Shown here one piece after another: positions 6,599 through 25,981 of a stretch of DNA of 26,346 nucleotides. Location of the stretch: positions 1 to 26,346 of IMG/VR virus record IMGVR_UViG_3300010430_006946; one strand, 5' to 3'. The notes beneath the pieces are model-generated. The model made no database searches. It was not told where the DNA came from and saw only the letters and a list, made by a program, of their open reading frames with translations. The stretch is from a virus. Each line of letters opens with the position of its first letter. The stretch's first letter is position 1. The position numbers and the translations under genes were made by a program.

Positions 6599-6808
6599 AT
6601 GAGGTTGCACTGGCTCGCCGCCGCCACCCTTGTTGGTATGGATATAGCCACCGGTCGCCGCGAAGCAGCGGGGCGTGGCAATGACCCGCGTTCAGATGCG
6701 GTGAAACGCTGCTATTTCGGTAGTCCAAACAGACTACCGGGCGGCCCGCCGAAACCTTTGACCAAGAGGCAGCGGCGACGAATGCGCGGCAAAACAAAGA
6801 GGCGCTAA
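6599..6808 (+). CDS. Small basic hypothetical protein
   Basis: The protein has 69 residues. The start at ATG 6599 is supported by an AAAGGA ribosome-binding site at 6587-6592; an in-frame upstream ATG at 6554 lacks this and lies inside the previous frame. The N-terminus is mildly hydrophobic (WLAAATLVGM) and the C-terminus is strongly basic (LTKRQRRRMRGKTKRR), so it probably binds nucleic acid or a negatively charged surface. It ends one base into the ATG of the MuF gene (TAATG at 6806-6810). No family is recognised. Confidence 0.6.
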   Translation: MRLHWLAAATLVGMDIATGRREAAGRGNDPRSDAVKRCYFGSPNRLPGGPPKPLTKRQRRRMRGKTKRR

Positions 6809-8082
6809 TGCCCGATGAACATCCTTCCGCCGTTTCCGGTGCATTTCGAGAGCCGTTCCCGGAGCAGGTCGCGTTCTTTCGTGGCAAGCTGGGCAATCTG
6901 GTGCCGACCGAGCGCTGGGACGATATTGAGCGCGAAGCGCATGACAGCGCGTTCATGGTCGCCGGTGCCACAAAAGCCGATCTGCTGACCGATCTGGGCG
7001 CGGCAACCGACCGGGCTATCACCGAAGGCAAATCGCTCGAAGCGTTCCGCAAGGACTTCAAGGCGATCGTTGGCAAGCACGGCTGGACGGGCTGGACTGG
7101 CGAAGGCAGGCTCAAGGGCGAAGCATGGCGCGTGCGCACGATCTATTCGACCAATGCCTACACCAGCTATGCAGCCGGGCGGCTGGCCCAGCTGCGCGAA
7201 GGCAACTTTCCGTTCTGGCTCTATCGTCACGGCGGCAGTCTGGAACCGCGCCTGCATCATCTGGCATGGGATGGCACCGCACTGCCGCCCGATCATGAAT
7301 TCTGGAAGACGCACTATCCGCCCAGCGACTGGGGCTGCAGCTGCTATGTCGTTGGCGCGCGATCGGCGCGCGGCGTAAAGCGGCTGGGCGGCGATCCCGA
7401 CAAACAGCTGCCAAAGGACTGGAAACGCCGCGATCCAAAAACCGGCGCGCCGGTCGGCATCGGGCGCGGCTGGGATTATGCGCCGGGCAGCACCGTGTCG
7501 AACACGATTTCGGCGCTGGCCGCTAAACCGCGCAACTGGGATTATGCGGTTTCCAAGGCGTTCATGGGGTCGCTTCCGCCTGATCGGGCAGAGGCATTTG
7601 CCGAAGCTTACCGGTCGTTGCCCAGCACACAGGACGATGCCCGGCGCTTTGCAAAGGCGATATACGAAGGCAGACCGCCCGCGGCAGACAAGCCTGTCCG
7701 CACGCTTGGCCCGGCGCGGGCGACCGACGCCGCTGAAGTCAAACGGCTGACCGGCAAGGATGTTGACGGGTTCGATTATCGCGTCGCCCAGGATTCCGTG
7801 CGCCACGTTATCAACGAACACACTGATCCCGAGGTTGAAGCCGCGCGCGATCAGCGCGTGGTCGGCCCGGAGGATTTTGGCCTGCTACCGTCGATCGTTT
7901 CATCGCCTGACGCGATCACGGGGCCGAGCGTTTCCAAAACTGGTGAACTGCTCGTGCATTTCTCCAAATTGATCGGGACGGAGCGAGTGACCGCAACATT
8001 CGCGATCCACGAACGCCGCCGTTCGATGACCCTGAAAACCTATTTCGTGAAAGTGATGAACGGCCCCGCACTTACGCCTTGA
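6808..8082 (+). CDS. MuF minor head protein with C-terminal PBECR-type nuclease toxin domain
   Basis: The protein has 424 residues. Residues about 30-225 form the MuF (Mu gpF, PF04233) head-morphogenesis domain. Its hallmarks are the RTIYSTNAYTSYAAGR helix (110-125) and a block with LHHLAWDGTALPPDHEFW (149-166) leading to PPSDWGCSCYVV (171-182), the 'PP..W.CRC' signature. Residues about 300-424 form an extra domain with VRHVINEH (331-338), EDFGLLPSIVSSPDAI (355-370), LVHFSKLIG (382-390) and a terminal MTLKTYFVKV (407-416). This resembles the phage-Barnase-EndoU-ColicinE5/D-RelE-like (PBECR) nuclease domains found on MuF proteins. MuF proteins are packaged structural components, and polymorphic MuF toxins are known in temperate phages. 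The toxin call is by pattern; RNase activity is an inference. Confidence 0.85.
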   Translation: MPDEHPSAVSGAFREPFPEQVAFFRGKLGNLVPTERWDDIEREAHDSAFMVAGATKADLLTDLGAATDRAITEGKSLEAFRKDFKAIVGKHGWTGWTGEGRLKGEAWRVRTIYSTNAYTSYAAGRLAQLREGNFPFWLYRHGGSLEPRLHHLAWDGTALPPDHEFWKTHYPPSDWGCSCYVVGARSARGVKRLGGDPDKQLPKDWKRRDPKTGAPVGIGRGWDYAPGSTVSNTISALAAKPRNWDYAVSKAFMGSLPPDRAEAFAEAYRSLPSTQDDARRFAKAIYEGRPPAADKPVRTLGPARATDAAEVKRLTGKDVDGFDYRVAQDSVRHVINEHTDPEVEAARDQRVVGPEDFGLLPSIVSSPDAITGPSVSKTGELLVHFSKLIGTERVTATFAIHERRRSMTLKTYFVKVMNGPALTP

Positions 8083-8135
8083 ACGTTGCTGCACCGAATG
8101 CAGCCGCCGCGATGCCGTCAGGAGGCACTATAACC

Positions 8136-8633
8136 ATGCCCAGGTTAATTTTCAACAACGAGGCTTCGAAGAAGGCGTTGCGCCGCGCGGCGGACCTGCT
8201 TGGCGATATGACGCCGGTCTATCAGGACGTCGGCGAATACATGCTGGAGGCGACGCGCGATCGGTTCCGCAAGGGGGAAGCGCCGGACGGATCGAAGTGG
8301 CCGGCCAAAAGCGCAGCCACGCTCGATCGCTACAAGCGGCTGGGCTATGGCACGCTCAATCGCCCCTTGATCGGCCCGTCGAAATCGCTCTCTCGTCAGA
8401 TCCTGCGGTTCGTGTCAGCCGATGGCGTCACCATCGGTTCAAACCTTGAATACTCCGGCGTGATGCAGTTCGGCGCGGCCAAAGGCGCGTTCGGCACGGA
8501 CAGTCGCGGACGATCGATCCCCTGGGGCCGCATCCCGGCGCGCGCCTTTCTCGGCCTTTCAGATGCCGATGAGGAAGCAATTATCGACATCGCAGAAGAA
8601 CACATTGAGCCGCTTCTCGACGCTGACGGTTAA
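8136..8633 (+). CDS. Phage virion morphogenesis protein (Mu gpG-like, PF05069)
   Basis: The protein has 165 residues from ATG 8136, selected because AGGAGG (8120-8125) lies 10 nt upstream. A TTG at 8079, overlapping the MuF stop, and ATG 8112 are in frame but lack such a site. Family features are the YMLEATRDRFRKGEAPDGSKW region (about 29-49), a pattern L-x-x-S-G/ILR.. (SRQILRFVS) and the C-terminal IPARAFLGLSDADEEAI stretch (about 131-147). gpG-type proteins act in head completion or head-tail joining. It follows the minor head gene, as in Mu. Confidence 0.85.
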   Translation: MPRLIFNNEASKKALRRAADLLGDMTPVYQDVGEYMLEATRDRFRKGEAPDGSKWPAKSAATLDRYKRLGYGTLNRPLIGPSKSLSRQILRFVSADGVTIGSNLEYSGVMQFGAAKGAFGTDSRGRSIPWGRIPARAFLGLSDADEEAIIDIAEEHIEPLLDADG

Positions 8634-23495: not shown

Positions 23496-23654
23496 ATGAA
23501 GGAGTCGTTTAGATGCGGCGGTTGTGCCGCGCTGCTGTTTAAGGCAGAAAGGAACGCACTGGCCGGGCTGGTCGAGATCAAGTGTCGTCGATGCCGCCAG
23601 ATCAACCAATTGAGGCCTTTGAGCCCTTCTCCGAGCGCCAAGAGAGACGCCTGA
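23496..23654 (+). CDS. com: Com-like zinc-finger regulator
   Basis: The protein has 52 residues. It matches Mu Com in size and layout: M-K at the start, FRCGGCAALLFKAE (5-18) with the first Cys pair (C7, C10), then VEIKCRRCRQIN (26-37) with the second pair (C30, C33), giving one zinc finger, and a basic tail. In Mu, Com is a zinc-finger RNA-binding protein that exposes the mom start for translation. Here the gene directly downstream is a DNA methyltransferase instead of mom, so Com may control that gene. The ATG 23496 is preferred, though its ribosome-binding site is weak. Confidence 0.85.
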   Translation: MKESFRCGGCAALLFKAERNALAGLVEIKCRRCRQINQLRPLSPSPSAKRDA

Positions 23655-24628
23655 GGAGACAGTCCTTGTGGCTTTATATTCCAACGTTGATGGCGGCGAA
23701 TTGCGCGGCCTCTCACTATGCTCCGGATATGGAGGACTCGAACTCGGCATCAGTATCGCCGAGCCCGGATATCGAACTGTTTGTTTCGTCGAGCGGGAAG
23801 CCCATGCGGCGGCGGCTCTCGTGGCCCGGATGGAAGACAAAGCGCTGGAGCAAGCGCCTGTCTGGGACGATCTTAAATCCTTCGACGGCCACGCGTGGCG
23901 TGACCGCGTTCATATCCTCACTGCCGGTTATCCGTGCCAGCCATTCAGCATGGCAGGGAAGCGATGCGGGAAAAACGATCCCCGACACCTTTGGCCTGAA
24001 GTCGAGCGCATCATCGGTGAAGTGCGGCCAACTGCCGTCTTCGCAGAGAATGTCGAAGGGCACATCGATCTGGGATTTGCCGAAGTCGCAGCGAGCCTTC
24101 AGAAGCTGGGCTATTACACAAAAGCGGGACTGTTCACGGCGCGAGAAGTGGGCGCAAGCCACCGGCGTCGCCGCCTCTTCCTCCTGGCCTACGCCGACGG
24201 CGAGCGATGCGGGCTATATGCCGGATCTGATACTGGAGGGCGGTTCGATCACGATCAAGTCACCGTTCTACACGGCGGAGACGAGCTCGGGCCAGTTCTC
24301 GCTGACAAATGCAGCGCGGGCATGGTCGAGCATGTGGATGGCGATGAGGGCGCTTGGTTGGCGTCCGATCGCGAAGAGCTGGCCGAATGCGAAGCAATCT
24401 TCGCACCAGGTCCGGGTGAGCTTCAGGACTGGCACCGGCTCTTACATCGGCGGCCTGATCTCCAACCCGCGATTTTTCGAACACGTGATGGGCTGGCCGA
24501 TCGGGTGGAGCGCACCAGAGGAGCCGGTAACGGAGTATGCAGCCTGGCTGCGGCGTTCGCGTATCGAACTCTCAAGGCTGACTTCGTTGGCGATGCTGCG
24601 GGATCGGGAGTTAACCAATGACGCTTGA
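23582..24628 (+). CDS. Overlapping frame: WPTP...MGWPIGW-type phage protein (candidate overprinted gene)
   Basis: This frame, +1 relative to the C5-methyltransferase, is open for up to 348 residues across the entire methyltransferase gene. The start is uncertain: GTG 23582, ATG 23591, ATG 23690 and ATG 23804 are possible. Residues 199-210 (SSSWPTPTASDA) and 288-310 (containing SNPRFFEHVMGWPIGWS), plus SWPGWKTKRWSKRLSGT (80-96), match a family of phage proteins of unknown function encoded beside or on top of C5-methyltransferase genes. Codon use from about 24184 to 24560 looks normal for this genome in this frame (many G/C third bases), while the methyltransferase frame also keeps its motifs. 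It ends 7 nt beyond the methyltransferase stop, inside the adenine methyltransferase start. Expression is unproven. Confidence 0.55.
   Translation: MSSMPPDQPIEAFEPFSERQERRLRRQSLWLYIPTLMAANCAASHYAPDMEDSNSASVSPSPDIELFVSSSGKPMRRRLSWPGWKTKRWSKRLSGTILNPSTATRGVTAFISSLPVIRASHSAWQGSDAGKTIPDTFGLKSSASSVKCGQLPSSQRMSKGTSIWDLPKSQRAFRSWAITQKRDCSRREKWAQATGVAASSSWPTPTASDAGYMPDLILEGGSITIKSPFYTAETSSGQFSLTNAARAWSSMWMAMRALGWRPIAKSWPNAKQSSHQVRVSFRTGTGSYIGGLISNPRFFEHVMGWPIGWSAPEEPVTEYAAWLRRSRIELSRLTSLAMLRDRELTNDA
23668..24621 (+). CDS. DNA (cytosine-5) methyltransferase
   Basis: The protein has 317 residues from GTG 23668, with GAGGAG at 23653-23658. C5-methyltransferase motifs are in order: motif I GLSLCSGYGGLELG (14-27), motif IV GYPCQPFSMAG (87-97) with catalytic C90, motif VI ENVEG (127-131), motif VIII GASHRRRRLFLLAYAD (162-177) and a C-terminal motif IX/X region DGLADRVERTRGAGNGVCSLAAAFAY (274-299). 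It transfers a methyl group from SAM to cytosine C5. The target sequence cannot be read off. No restriction partner is near, so it is an orphan phage enzyme, probably for protection against host restriction. Its whole length is overlapped by a second protein-like frame. The stop is ATGA-coupled to the adenine methyltransferase. Confidence 0.92.
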   Translation: MALYSNVDGGELRGLSLCSGYGGLELGISIAEPGYRTVCFVEREAHAAAALVARMEDKALEQAPVWDDLKSFDGHAWRDRVHILTAGYPCQPFSMAGKRCGKNDPRHLWPEVERIIGEVRPTAVFAENVEGHIDLGFAEVAASLQKLGYYTKAGLFTAREVGASHRRRRLFLLAYADGERCGLYAGSDTGGRFDHDQVTVLHGGDELGPVLADKCSAGMVEHVDGDEGAWLASDREELAECEAIFAPGPGELQDWHRLLHRRPDLQPAIFRTRDGLADRVERTRGAGNGVCSLAAAFAYRTLKADFVGDAAGSGVNQ

Positions 24629-25403
24629 GCCTGTCCAGCCGGTTAGGCCGGTCGCGCCATACCTTGGCGGCAAGCGCGCGCTCGCCAAGCGTCTTGTCCC
24701 GATGATCGATGATATTCCGCACGATCTCTATGCGGAGCCATTCGTTGGCATGGGCGGCGTCTTCTTTCGCCGGACGCGGCGGCCGAGGAAGGAAGTGATC
24801 AACGATATCTCGACCGATGTCGTGAATCTCTTCCGGTTGTTGCAACGCCATTATCAGCAGCTGCTCGACGTGCTGAAGTGGCAGGTCTGCAGCCGGGCTG
24901 AGTTTGAGCGTCTGGTCTCGCTCGATCCCGACAGACTGACCGATCTGGAGCGGGCCGCCCGGTTCCTCTATCTGCAGCGCGCGGGCTTTGGTGGCATGGC
25001 CCGCAATTATGGTGTGGCCAGAACCAACCCGGCGCGCTTCGATCTGACAAAGCTGGTGCCGATGCTTGAGGATGTTCATCAGCGCCTTTGCGGCGTCGAC
25101 ATCGAGCGGCTGCCCTATGCTGAGCTGATTGGCCGCTATGACACGCCTGGCACGCTGTTCTATCTCGACCCGCCATACTTCGGTTGTGAAGATGACTATG
25201 GCCCAGGCATCTTCTCAACGGCTGATTTCGAGGTTCTGAGAGGCCTCTTAGAAGGGCTCAAGGGCCGCTTCATCCTGTCGCTGAACGACAGACCTGAAGT
25301 CCGGGAGTTGTTCGCCGGGTTCAAGATCGAGGAGGCCAAGCTCAACTATCGAGTCAGCGGAAAGGTGACACCAGCCCGCGAGGTGATTATCACAGGGCCA
25401 TGA
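24618..25403 (+). CDS. DNA adenine methyltransferase, D12 class (Dam-like)
   Basis: The protein has 261 residues, a typical D12-class N6-adenine methyltransferase length. Motif X-like PYLGGK (14-19) is followed by motif I EPFVGMGG (40-47) for SAM binding, and by motif IV DPPY (184-187) within YLDPPYFG, the catalytic motif. The helical insert between them (about 70-165) is the usual target-recognition part. The enzyme methylates adenine N6 in duplex DNA; GATC is a common target of the class but is not proven here. It is translationally coupled to the preceding C5 enzyme (ATGA) and to the following gene (ATGA), so both base modifications are produced from one mRNA. Confidence 0.92.
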   Translation: MTLEPVQPVRPVAPYLGGKRALAKRLVPMIDDIPHDLYAEPFVGMGGVFFRRTRRPRKEVINDISTDVVNLFRLLQRHYQQLLDVLKWQVCSRAEFERLVSLDPDRLTDLERAARFLYLQRAGFGGMARNYGVARTNPARFDLTKLVPMLEDVHQRLCGVDIERLPYAELIGRYDTPGTLFYLDPPYFGCEDDYGPGIFSTADFEVLRGLLEGLKGRFILSLNDRPEVRELFAGFKIEEAKLNYRVSGKVTPAREVIITGP

Positions 25404-25789
25404 GCATTTACGACCAATCAAAATGGCCGAACCCTGAAGCCAACCCTCTCGTGATCATGCTGGAACGTGGTGACCAATGGTTCAGCAACACTGAGATCAA
25501 CACCGCCCTCGATCCGGAGCGCAGGAACAAGAATCGTTCCGTCATAGCGAACTGGCCTACGCTGGCTGAACAATTGAGAGACGGGGATACGATGATCGAA
25601 GGCCGCACTTTCCGGGAACCAACGAATGACCGGCAGGGCCGGACTGGAGGCGTCTCAAGATACTTCAGCCAGCGCGCGCTGATTCTGATCATAATGCGCG
25701 CTCAGACAATCAACGCCGCAGCATGCCGAGATTGGATAGCCACTGCTATGGCAGATACCCTTTCCGCCCACGAGTTTGCTGCTCAATAA
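25400..25789 (+). CDS. Unknown right-end protein (129 residues)
   Basis: The protein has 129 residues and is coupled to the adenine methyltransferase by ATGA. It has a Trp-rich N-terminal half (KWPNPEANPLVIMLERGDQWFS) and a C-terminal stretch GGVSRYFSQRALILIIMRAQTINAAACRDWIATAMA (about 83-118). This has weak resemblance to the 'Y.s..glY.Li.rs..p.A..f..Wv' end of BRO-N/antirepressor proteins. That resemblance is only suggestive. It is slightly less GC-rich than its neighbours. As the last gene before the phage right end it could be a regulator, an anti-restriction partner or a moron. Confidence 0.6.
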   Translation: MSIYDQSKWPNPEANPLVIMLERGDQWFSNTEINTALDPERRNKNRSVIANWPTLAEQLRDGDTMIEGRTFREPTNDRQGRTGGVSRYFSQRALILIIMRAQTINAAACRDWIATAMADTLSAHEFAAQ

Positions 25790-25801: not shown

Positions 25802-25851
25802 GCTCCAGAACCTCTTGTCAGAAATGGCTAATCGCTCCAGAACCTCTTGTC
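25802..25851 (+). repeat. Two perfect 18-bp direct repeats, candidate transposase-binding sites at the right phage end
   Basis: The sequence GCTCCAGAACCTCTTGTC occurs at 25802-25819 and again at 25834-25851, 32 bp apart start to start (about three helical turns). They lie after the last phage gene and before the host DUF3297 gene. Mu-type transposases bind tandem sites of about 20 bp beside each end, and the phage DNA ends in CA. The nearest following CA is at 25858-25859; another candidate is at 25867-25868. The role is inferred because the left end is not available. Confidence 0.5.
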
Positions 25852-25868
25852 CGGCTACAGCGGTTCCA

Positions 25869-25942
25869 GCCCGACTCCCCCGCCCAACCACCCGATATCC
25901 TTCAGGTAACCTTTATCGGGTGGTTGGGCGGGGGAGACGGGC
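25869..25942. repeat. Long perfect inverted repeat (29-bp arms with one mismatch)
   Basis: The arms 25875-25897 and 25914-25936 are perfectly complementary over 23 bp around a 16-nt loop (25898-25913). After a single A/A mismatch they continue 5 bp further as GCCCG (25869-25873) and CGGGC (25938-25942). No T-run follows on either strand, so it is not a classical intrinsic terminator. It may be a host REP-like palindrome, a Rho-independent-like barrier at the 3' end of the DUF3297 gene, or part of the phage end. Confidence 0.8.
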
Positions 25943-25981
25943 CGGTGCCGAAAGCGCATCACGAACGTGATACGCGCACCG
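25943..25981. terminator. Second hairpin beside the host gene 3' end (possible terminator)
   Basis: CGGTGC (25943-25948) pairs with GCACCG (25976-25981), enclosing GCG/CGC and the perfect inner arms ATCACG/CGTGAT (25958-25971). It directly adjoins the long inverted repeat and lies 47 nt beyond the 3' end of the minus-strand DUF3297 gene. It lacks a U tract. A transcription end or mRNA-stabilising structure for DUF3297 is the simplest reading. Confidence 0.4.

Follow-up and report, generated by a model that had tools for sequence, protein, structure and literature searches.

A Com-linked phage cytosine-5 methyltransferase gene appears to encode two subunits in overlapping frames from coincident start codons

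The two genes of the split cytosine-5 (C5) methyltransferase M.EcoHK31I reportedly overlap in different frames, as Lee, Kam and Shaw are said to have described in 1995, and its small subunit, about 176 residues long, is reportedly made from an internal start. Long overlapping genes on the same strand with good evidence are, to our knowledge, rare in prokaryotes, and we know of few natural examples of ambiguous initiation with two functional products. In M.EcoHK31I, motif IX lies on a small, separate polypeptide and motifs I–VIII and X on the large one, which is also predicted to contain the recognition domain (PMC3404938). Ambiguous initiation sites of the AUGUG/GUGUG kind occur in Escherichia coli pqiA, tamA and narQ, and Thermus rnpA–rpmH is a comparable case; E. 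coli ribosomes initiate at both codons of such a site when the aligned Shine–Dalgarno spacing is 12/14 for AUGUG or from 12/14 to 14/16 for GUGUG (Kohl et al., PMC9841429).

Here we report that the C5-methyltransferase gene of a Mu-like phage probably gives rise to two proteins that would make up one split enzyme, from a shared start site that Com may switch. The window, which is the whole 26,346-base virus record analysed, contains Mu gp27, portal and F proteins, and a host-type DUF3297 gene lies on the other strand, 3′ of the cassette described below; together these genes place the cassette at the right end, in the position of Mu com and mom. Just beyond the cassette, two identical 18-nucleotide (nt) direct repeats (GCTCCAGAACCTCTTGTC, 32 nt apart, 25802–25851) are followed by a 37-nt inverted repeat (25861–25950); the former are possibly the phage right end bound by transposase, and the latter possibly a terminator of the host, ahead of the DUF3297 gene. 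Elsewhere in the window, the C terminus (residues 126–174) of a 175-residue protein (1419–1946, +) matches the Acb2/Tad1 hairpin domain (E = 6.9e-11), an anti-CBASS/anti-Thoeris sponge domain that here ends a longer protein adjoining Mu gp27, and the Mu F-like head protein (6808–8082, +) has a C-terminal PBECR3 nuclease-like segment (residues 308–389; E = 1.5e-6, slightly below the cut-off).

An earlier note, made from the letters of this DNA, had described the cassette as a Com-like regulator followed by a C5-cytosine methyltransferase, a D12 adenine methyltransferase and a fourth gene, and all four open reading frames (ORFs) are present, on the plus strand. The first (23496–23654) encodes a 52-residue zinc ribbon (CGGC...CRRC), and its assignment to Com holds: it matches PF10122 at 36.2 bits, against a cut-off of 22.9, and PHROG 6417, annotated as a translational regulator. 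The D12-class (Dam family) adenine methyltransferase (24618–25403) is equally clear, with a PF02086 match of 82.4 bits and an intact DPPY motif (FYLDPPYFG). The fourth ORF (25400–25789; 129 residues) has weak Bro-N/antirepressor similarity (PF02498, E = 0.0041, under the cut-off), and no relatives of it were found in the fetched comparison loci. The genes were said to be joined by ATGA overlaps; this is so for the C5 and dam genes (24618–24621) and for dam and the fourth ORF (25400–25403), but com has no such join and ends 11 nt upstream of the next start. The C5 methyltransferase itself (PF00145, 106.5 bits) was correctly named, but its reading as a single protein is incomplete, a second ORF at 23666–24628 having been overlooked.

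This second ORF, in the +1 frame, spans the whole C5 gene. We refer to the product of the first frame (23668–24621, +; 317 residues) as alpha, and to that of the second (23666–24628, +; 320 residues), whose stop lies 7 nt beyond that of alpha, as beta. Alpha carries motifs I–VIII (PCQ, ENV, RRR), with invariant residues P89, C90, Q91, E127, N128 and V129, as well as motif X (GAGNGV), and it matches PHROG 363 (E = 8.8e-53). Its PF00145 match is confined to residues 13–179 and stops directly after motif VIII, and the match between the family profile and M.HhaI likewise ends at about motif VIII. The beta frame encodes WPTPTASD...NPRFFEHVMGWPIGW, which resembles the recognition segment and motif IX (MGWPIGW) of phage C5 methyltransferases. 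A single-chain C5 methyltransferase holds its recognition domain and motifs IX and X together in one chain; alpha lacks this combination, and the division found by sequence, with motifs I–VIII and X on one chain and motif IX on the other, is that of M.EcoHK31I.

Beta has a conserved N terminus (M-W-[LIT]-[YFH]-x-P), followed by a middle part of low confidence. It matches PHROG 1008 (E = 4.6e-12), a family that also covers the beta of Acidovorax phage Alfacinha1 (102–281) and whose end (293–321) matches motif X of alpha. For the window beta, no Pfam match passed the threshold applied and no convincing relative turned up among PDB sequences; its C-terminal segment alone gave no tblastn match in phage records. 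In the AlphaFold models, alpha is ordered over residues 12–180, where it matches the M.HhaI catalytic domain over about 170 residues, and of low confidence at 182–234, whereas beta is of low confidence across most of residues 1–133 and better from 180; the beta model, which is weak and of modest quality (pLDDT 59), matched no solved fold. The predicted order of the two chains is complementary and follows the same division of labour as the motifs.

An alignment-based search of viral contigs with beta yielded 174 loci, 80 of which were fetched; 78 were readable at the start. Alpha and beta overlap by 646–981 nt in the fetched loci (median 912), and at least dozens of related phages keep this layout. 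In the window, the two frames open within TTGTGG (23666–23671, +), where TTG begins beta and GTG begins alpha, two starts that overlap by 2 nt behind a single Shine–Dalgarno sequence (AGGAG, 23654–23658, +), as at described ambiguous sites; the aligned spacing is 14/16, and the window contains no alternative ATG, GTG or TTG start for alpha upstream in frame. Nearly coincident starts are kept in 78 of the 80 fetched relatives. Among the readable ones, TTG|GTG accounts for 38, GTG|GTG for 28 and ATG|GTG for 9, which gives NTG|GTG in 75 of 78; in the remaining three, a beta ATG lies 4–7 nt after an alpha ATG.

The spacing of these sites varies with the beta codon: it is 12 at 8 of 9 ATG sites, 13 at most GTG sites and 14 at most TTG sites. 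The ATG sites, at 12/14 in eight of nine, and the GTG sites, mostly at 12–14, fall within the published window for dual use, and the TTG sites at 14/16, the window's own included, are of a UUGUG type outside the sites tested in E. coli. Independent contrasts on the alpha tree, in a test devised after the pattern had been seen, indicate that spacing falls as the beta codon strengthens (r = −0.40, sign-flip P = 0.003), which looks like tuning that offsets the strength of the beta codon. We propose that one Shine–Dalgarno sequence places ribosomes on both overlapping starts, the TTG of beta and the GTG of alpha, and that start codon and spacing at this one initiation site set the balance of subunits. 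Alpha would supply the catalytic core and motif X, and beta the target-recognition segment and motif IX; the two would join as a heterodimer, a cytosine-5 methyltransferase split in the manner of M.EcoHK31I and able to methylate DNA. One RNA site may suffice for Com to turn on both halves of this enzyme: with the initiation site at the com 3′ end, it would switch both subunits, by analogy with Mu com/mom, and translational coupling would switch on the downstream Dam too.

The linkage to Com is extensive. The earlier note had called for comparison with other com–methyltransferase loci, and in that comparison Com stands upstream of alpha/beta in 69 of 80 loci, and before other modification genes elsewhere. 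In close relatives, com ends anywhere from 31 nt inside the shared start to 20 nt before it (−31 to +20), and in the window it lies directly before a modification gene at a Mu-like right end, as Mu com does. Com also precedes a Dam gene in L027 and an ABC-ATPase/GNAT protein in L021, and a Com-like ORF precedes an N6/N4 methyltransferase in L026. Com therefore looks, from gene order, like a common switch behind which one modification gene can be exchanged for another, and the suggestion that the regulation was kept as the chemistry was exchanged stands in this comparative sense. The L026 gene (4138–4935) lies amid structural-looking genes, not at an end. The L021 gene (4286–5494) encodes a 402-residue fusion of ABC-ATPase and GNAT parts that matches PHROG 11143 (function unknown; E = 4e-151) and is possibly a Mom-like DNA-modification enzyme. 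L032 has a second dam-like gene near its cassette, on the opposite strand (7437–8201, −).

Given this position and the analogy with Mu, alpha and beta are probably controlled by Com. That both proteins are made while Com is a mere passenger, or acts on another transcript, seems to us rather unlikely. SELEX with a Com protein selected the core GAG(N)2CC in vitro (PMC6483171), and the com 3′ end contains a candidate Com-contact RNA segment, GAGGCC...GAGCCC...GAGCGCC (23612–23639, +). Such cores are about eight times commoner upstream of the start than in shuffled leaders, an excess partly due to the conserved com tail. At one site in the com 3′ end, arginine is encoded by AGG in 17 of 18 loci, as against 8 of 81 arginine codons elsewhere in the finger, and these codon choices point to a constraint at the RNA (nucleotide) level. 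Together with the nearness of com to the start, seen in close relatives, and its place ahead of other modification genes, this argues against a passenger. The passenger reading draws on the folding of the leader, since a Mu-like translation-inhibiting structure could not be demonstrated: across 18 leaders RNAalifold returned only three pairs with zero covariation and no conserved structure, and single-sequence folding gave z-scores near zero. Pairing of the start codons is high, yet not above that in shuffled flanks, and we therefore do not claim a translation-inhibiting hairpin. The same reading is also favoured by coincident starts that occur where no Com is recognised, as in Alfacinha1 (L003) and in 11 of the 80 loci; Com is thus not required for a coincident start.

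Com would thereby turn the methyltransferases on late in infection, protecting phage DNA from restriction. Phage methyltransferases can serve varied roles and Dam-like enzymes regulate genes, and the two enzymes might instead be the modification half of a restriction–modification system or act in host regulation. We consider this improbable, because no restriction endonuclease gene was recognised beside the methyltransferases and the cassette occupies the late right end, the position of mom in Mu.

The case that beta is a protein in its own right rests on its conservation. In full-length relatives, drawn from viral contigs and genomes, the beta frame continues uninterrupted until its stop codon, close to where alpha ends, and over the roughly 170 codons before WPTP it is free of stops in 19 of 19 loci, where synonymous shuffles lead one to expect 1–3 stops per locus. 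Single loci are mostly not significant (P = 0.02–0.13 for zero stops in several), and we judge the frame to be maintained because all loci agree, an argument that their shared descent weakens. Similarity in the beta frame exceeds an alpha-preserving synonymous-codon null by 1.8 to 4.0 BLOSUM units throughout the gene, whereas in the dam control both alternative frames lie only 0.1 to 0.4 units from the same null. In an entropy test of 70 aligned genes, the third positions of alpha codons are less variable than the first at codons 2–6 and under the beta recognition segment, and about equally variable at motifs IX/X; dam behaves normally. The beta start M-W-[LI]-[YFH]-x-P persists in nearly every relative through changes that are synonymous in beta and vary the alpha residues. 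Selection acts on both frames. We reject a frameshift introduced by sequencing, since both frames coexist in every relative.

These data also bear on a programmed frameshift near alpha codon 172, which would fuse motifs I–VIII to the beta segment and motif IX and leave beta without a start of its own. The order of segments would indeed restore most of the canonical chain, and the point at which alpha loses recognisable homology is where the conserved C-terminal segment of beta sets in. A fusion product would, however, be without motif X, the N terminus and start codon of beta are conserved and its first 170 codons kept open, and other phages have internal candidate beta starts or separately annotated beta genes; we hold this route to be very improbable. 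Still less credible, despite a G+C content of 0.61–0.68 in most loci, an absence of stops that is not rare by chance in several single loci and the presence of the catalytic motifs on alpha, is an ordinary single methyltransferase whose +1 frame is open merely through high G+C and biased codon use, since that frame is open at all loci, M-W-[LI]-[YFH]-x-P and WPTPTAS...MGWPIGW are conserved as beta codons where alpha varies, the dam control has no such signal, alpha homology to M.HhaI stops at motif VIII and other phages have beta-like frames annotated as genes.

Among 12 other phage or plasmid C5 methyltransferases, ten have a +1-frame beta and two, from Gordonia phage JKSyngboy and an NgoMIV-type enzyme, are single chains. 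The +1-frame beta ORFs occur in many unrelated phage and plasmid loci (L004, L005, L119, L122–L125 and L127–L129), where either frame, or each of them, is named in the annotation; PHROG 363 corresponds to alpha and PHROG 1008 to beta. In Paenibacillus phage Bloom, both frames (BLOOM_56/57) are annotated as methyltransferases. Bloom and Stenotrophomonas phage S72 share the +1 split, but their candidate beta start lies inside alpha, as it does in most of the other +1-frame C5 methyltransferases; in Salmonella phage S9-5, Acinetobacter phage ABMM1 and a Leptospira plasmid, beta can start 4 nt after alpha. No Com was seen in the annotated neighbourhoods of the overlapping phage pairs of Bloom, S72, S9-5 and ABMM1. 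Split C5 methyltransferases encoded in two frames form a wide class that has been recognised only in part, and M.EcoHK31I is its characterised member.

The comparative evidence for the two-frame gene is strong. Many phage annotations of a 'cytosine methyltransferase' may name one subunit only, in which case the annotated ORF, expressed alone, would be expected to be inactive. Com, in turn, would no longer be only the partner of mom but, more generally, a switch ahead of several different DNA-modification enzymes. We lean towards the wider proposition that, across these phages, a single Com-controlled site opens about 300 codons in two frames and delivers both methyltransferase subunits in a tuned ratio. 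Split enzymes and ambiguous starts are each known, and a Com-linked split C5 methyltransferase whose starts coincide seems to be a novel variation on them; our literature search, which missed most subscription papers, the original M.EcoHK31I papers included, found no earlier description of the arrangement.

Set beside the known systems, the locus resembles M.EcoHK31I in having catalytic motifs I–VIII and X on alpha and motif IX on beta, but differs from it in that beta is full-length, has a start overlapping that of alpha and is preceded by com, and in that the conserved recognition segment lies in beta instead of the large subunit. With pqiA, tamA, narQ and rnpA–rpmH it shares one Shine–Dalgarno sequence, two overlapping or adjacent starts and two frames; unlike them, it mostly uses UUGUG or GUGUG and is conserved across many phages, and its products are conserved and full-length and would share one enzyme. 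As in Mu com/mom, a Com zinc ribbon immediately precedes a late modification gene at the right end, but here a split C5 methyltransferase and a Dam take the place of mom.
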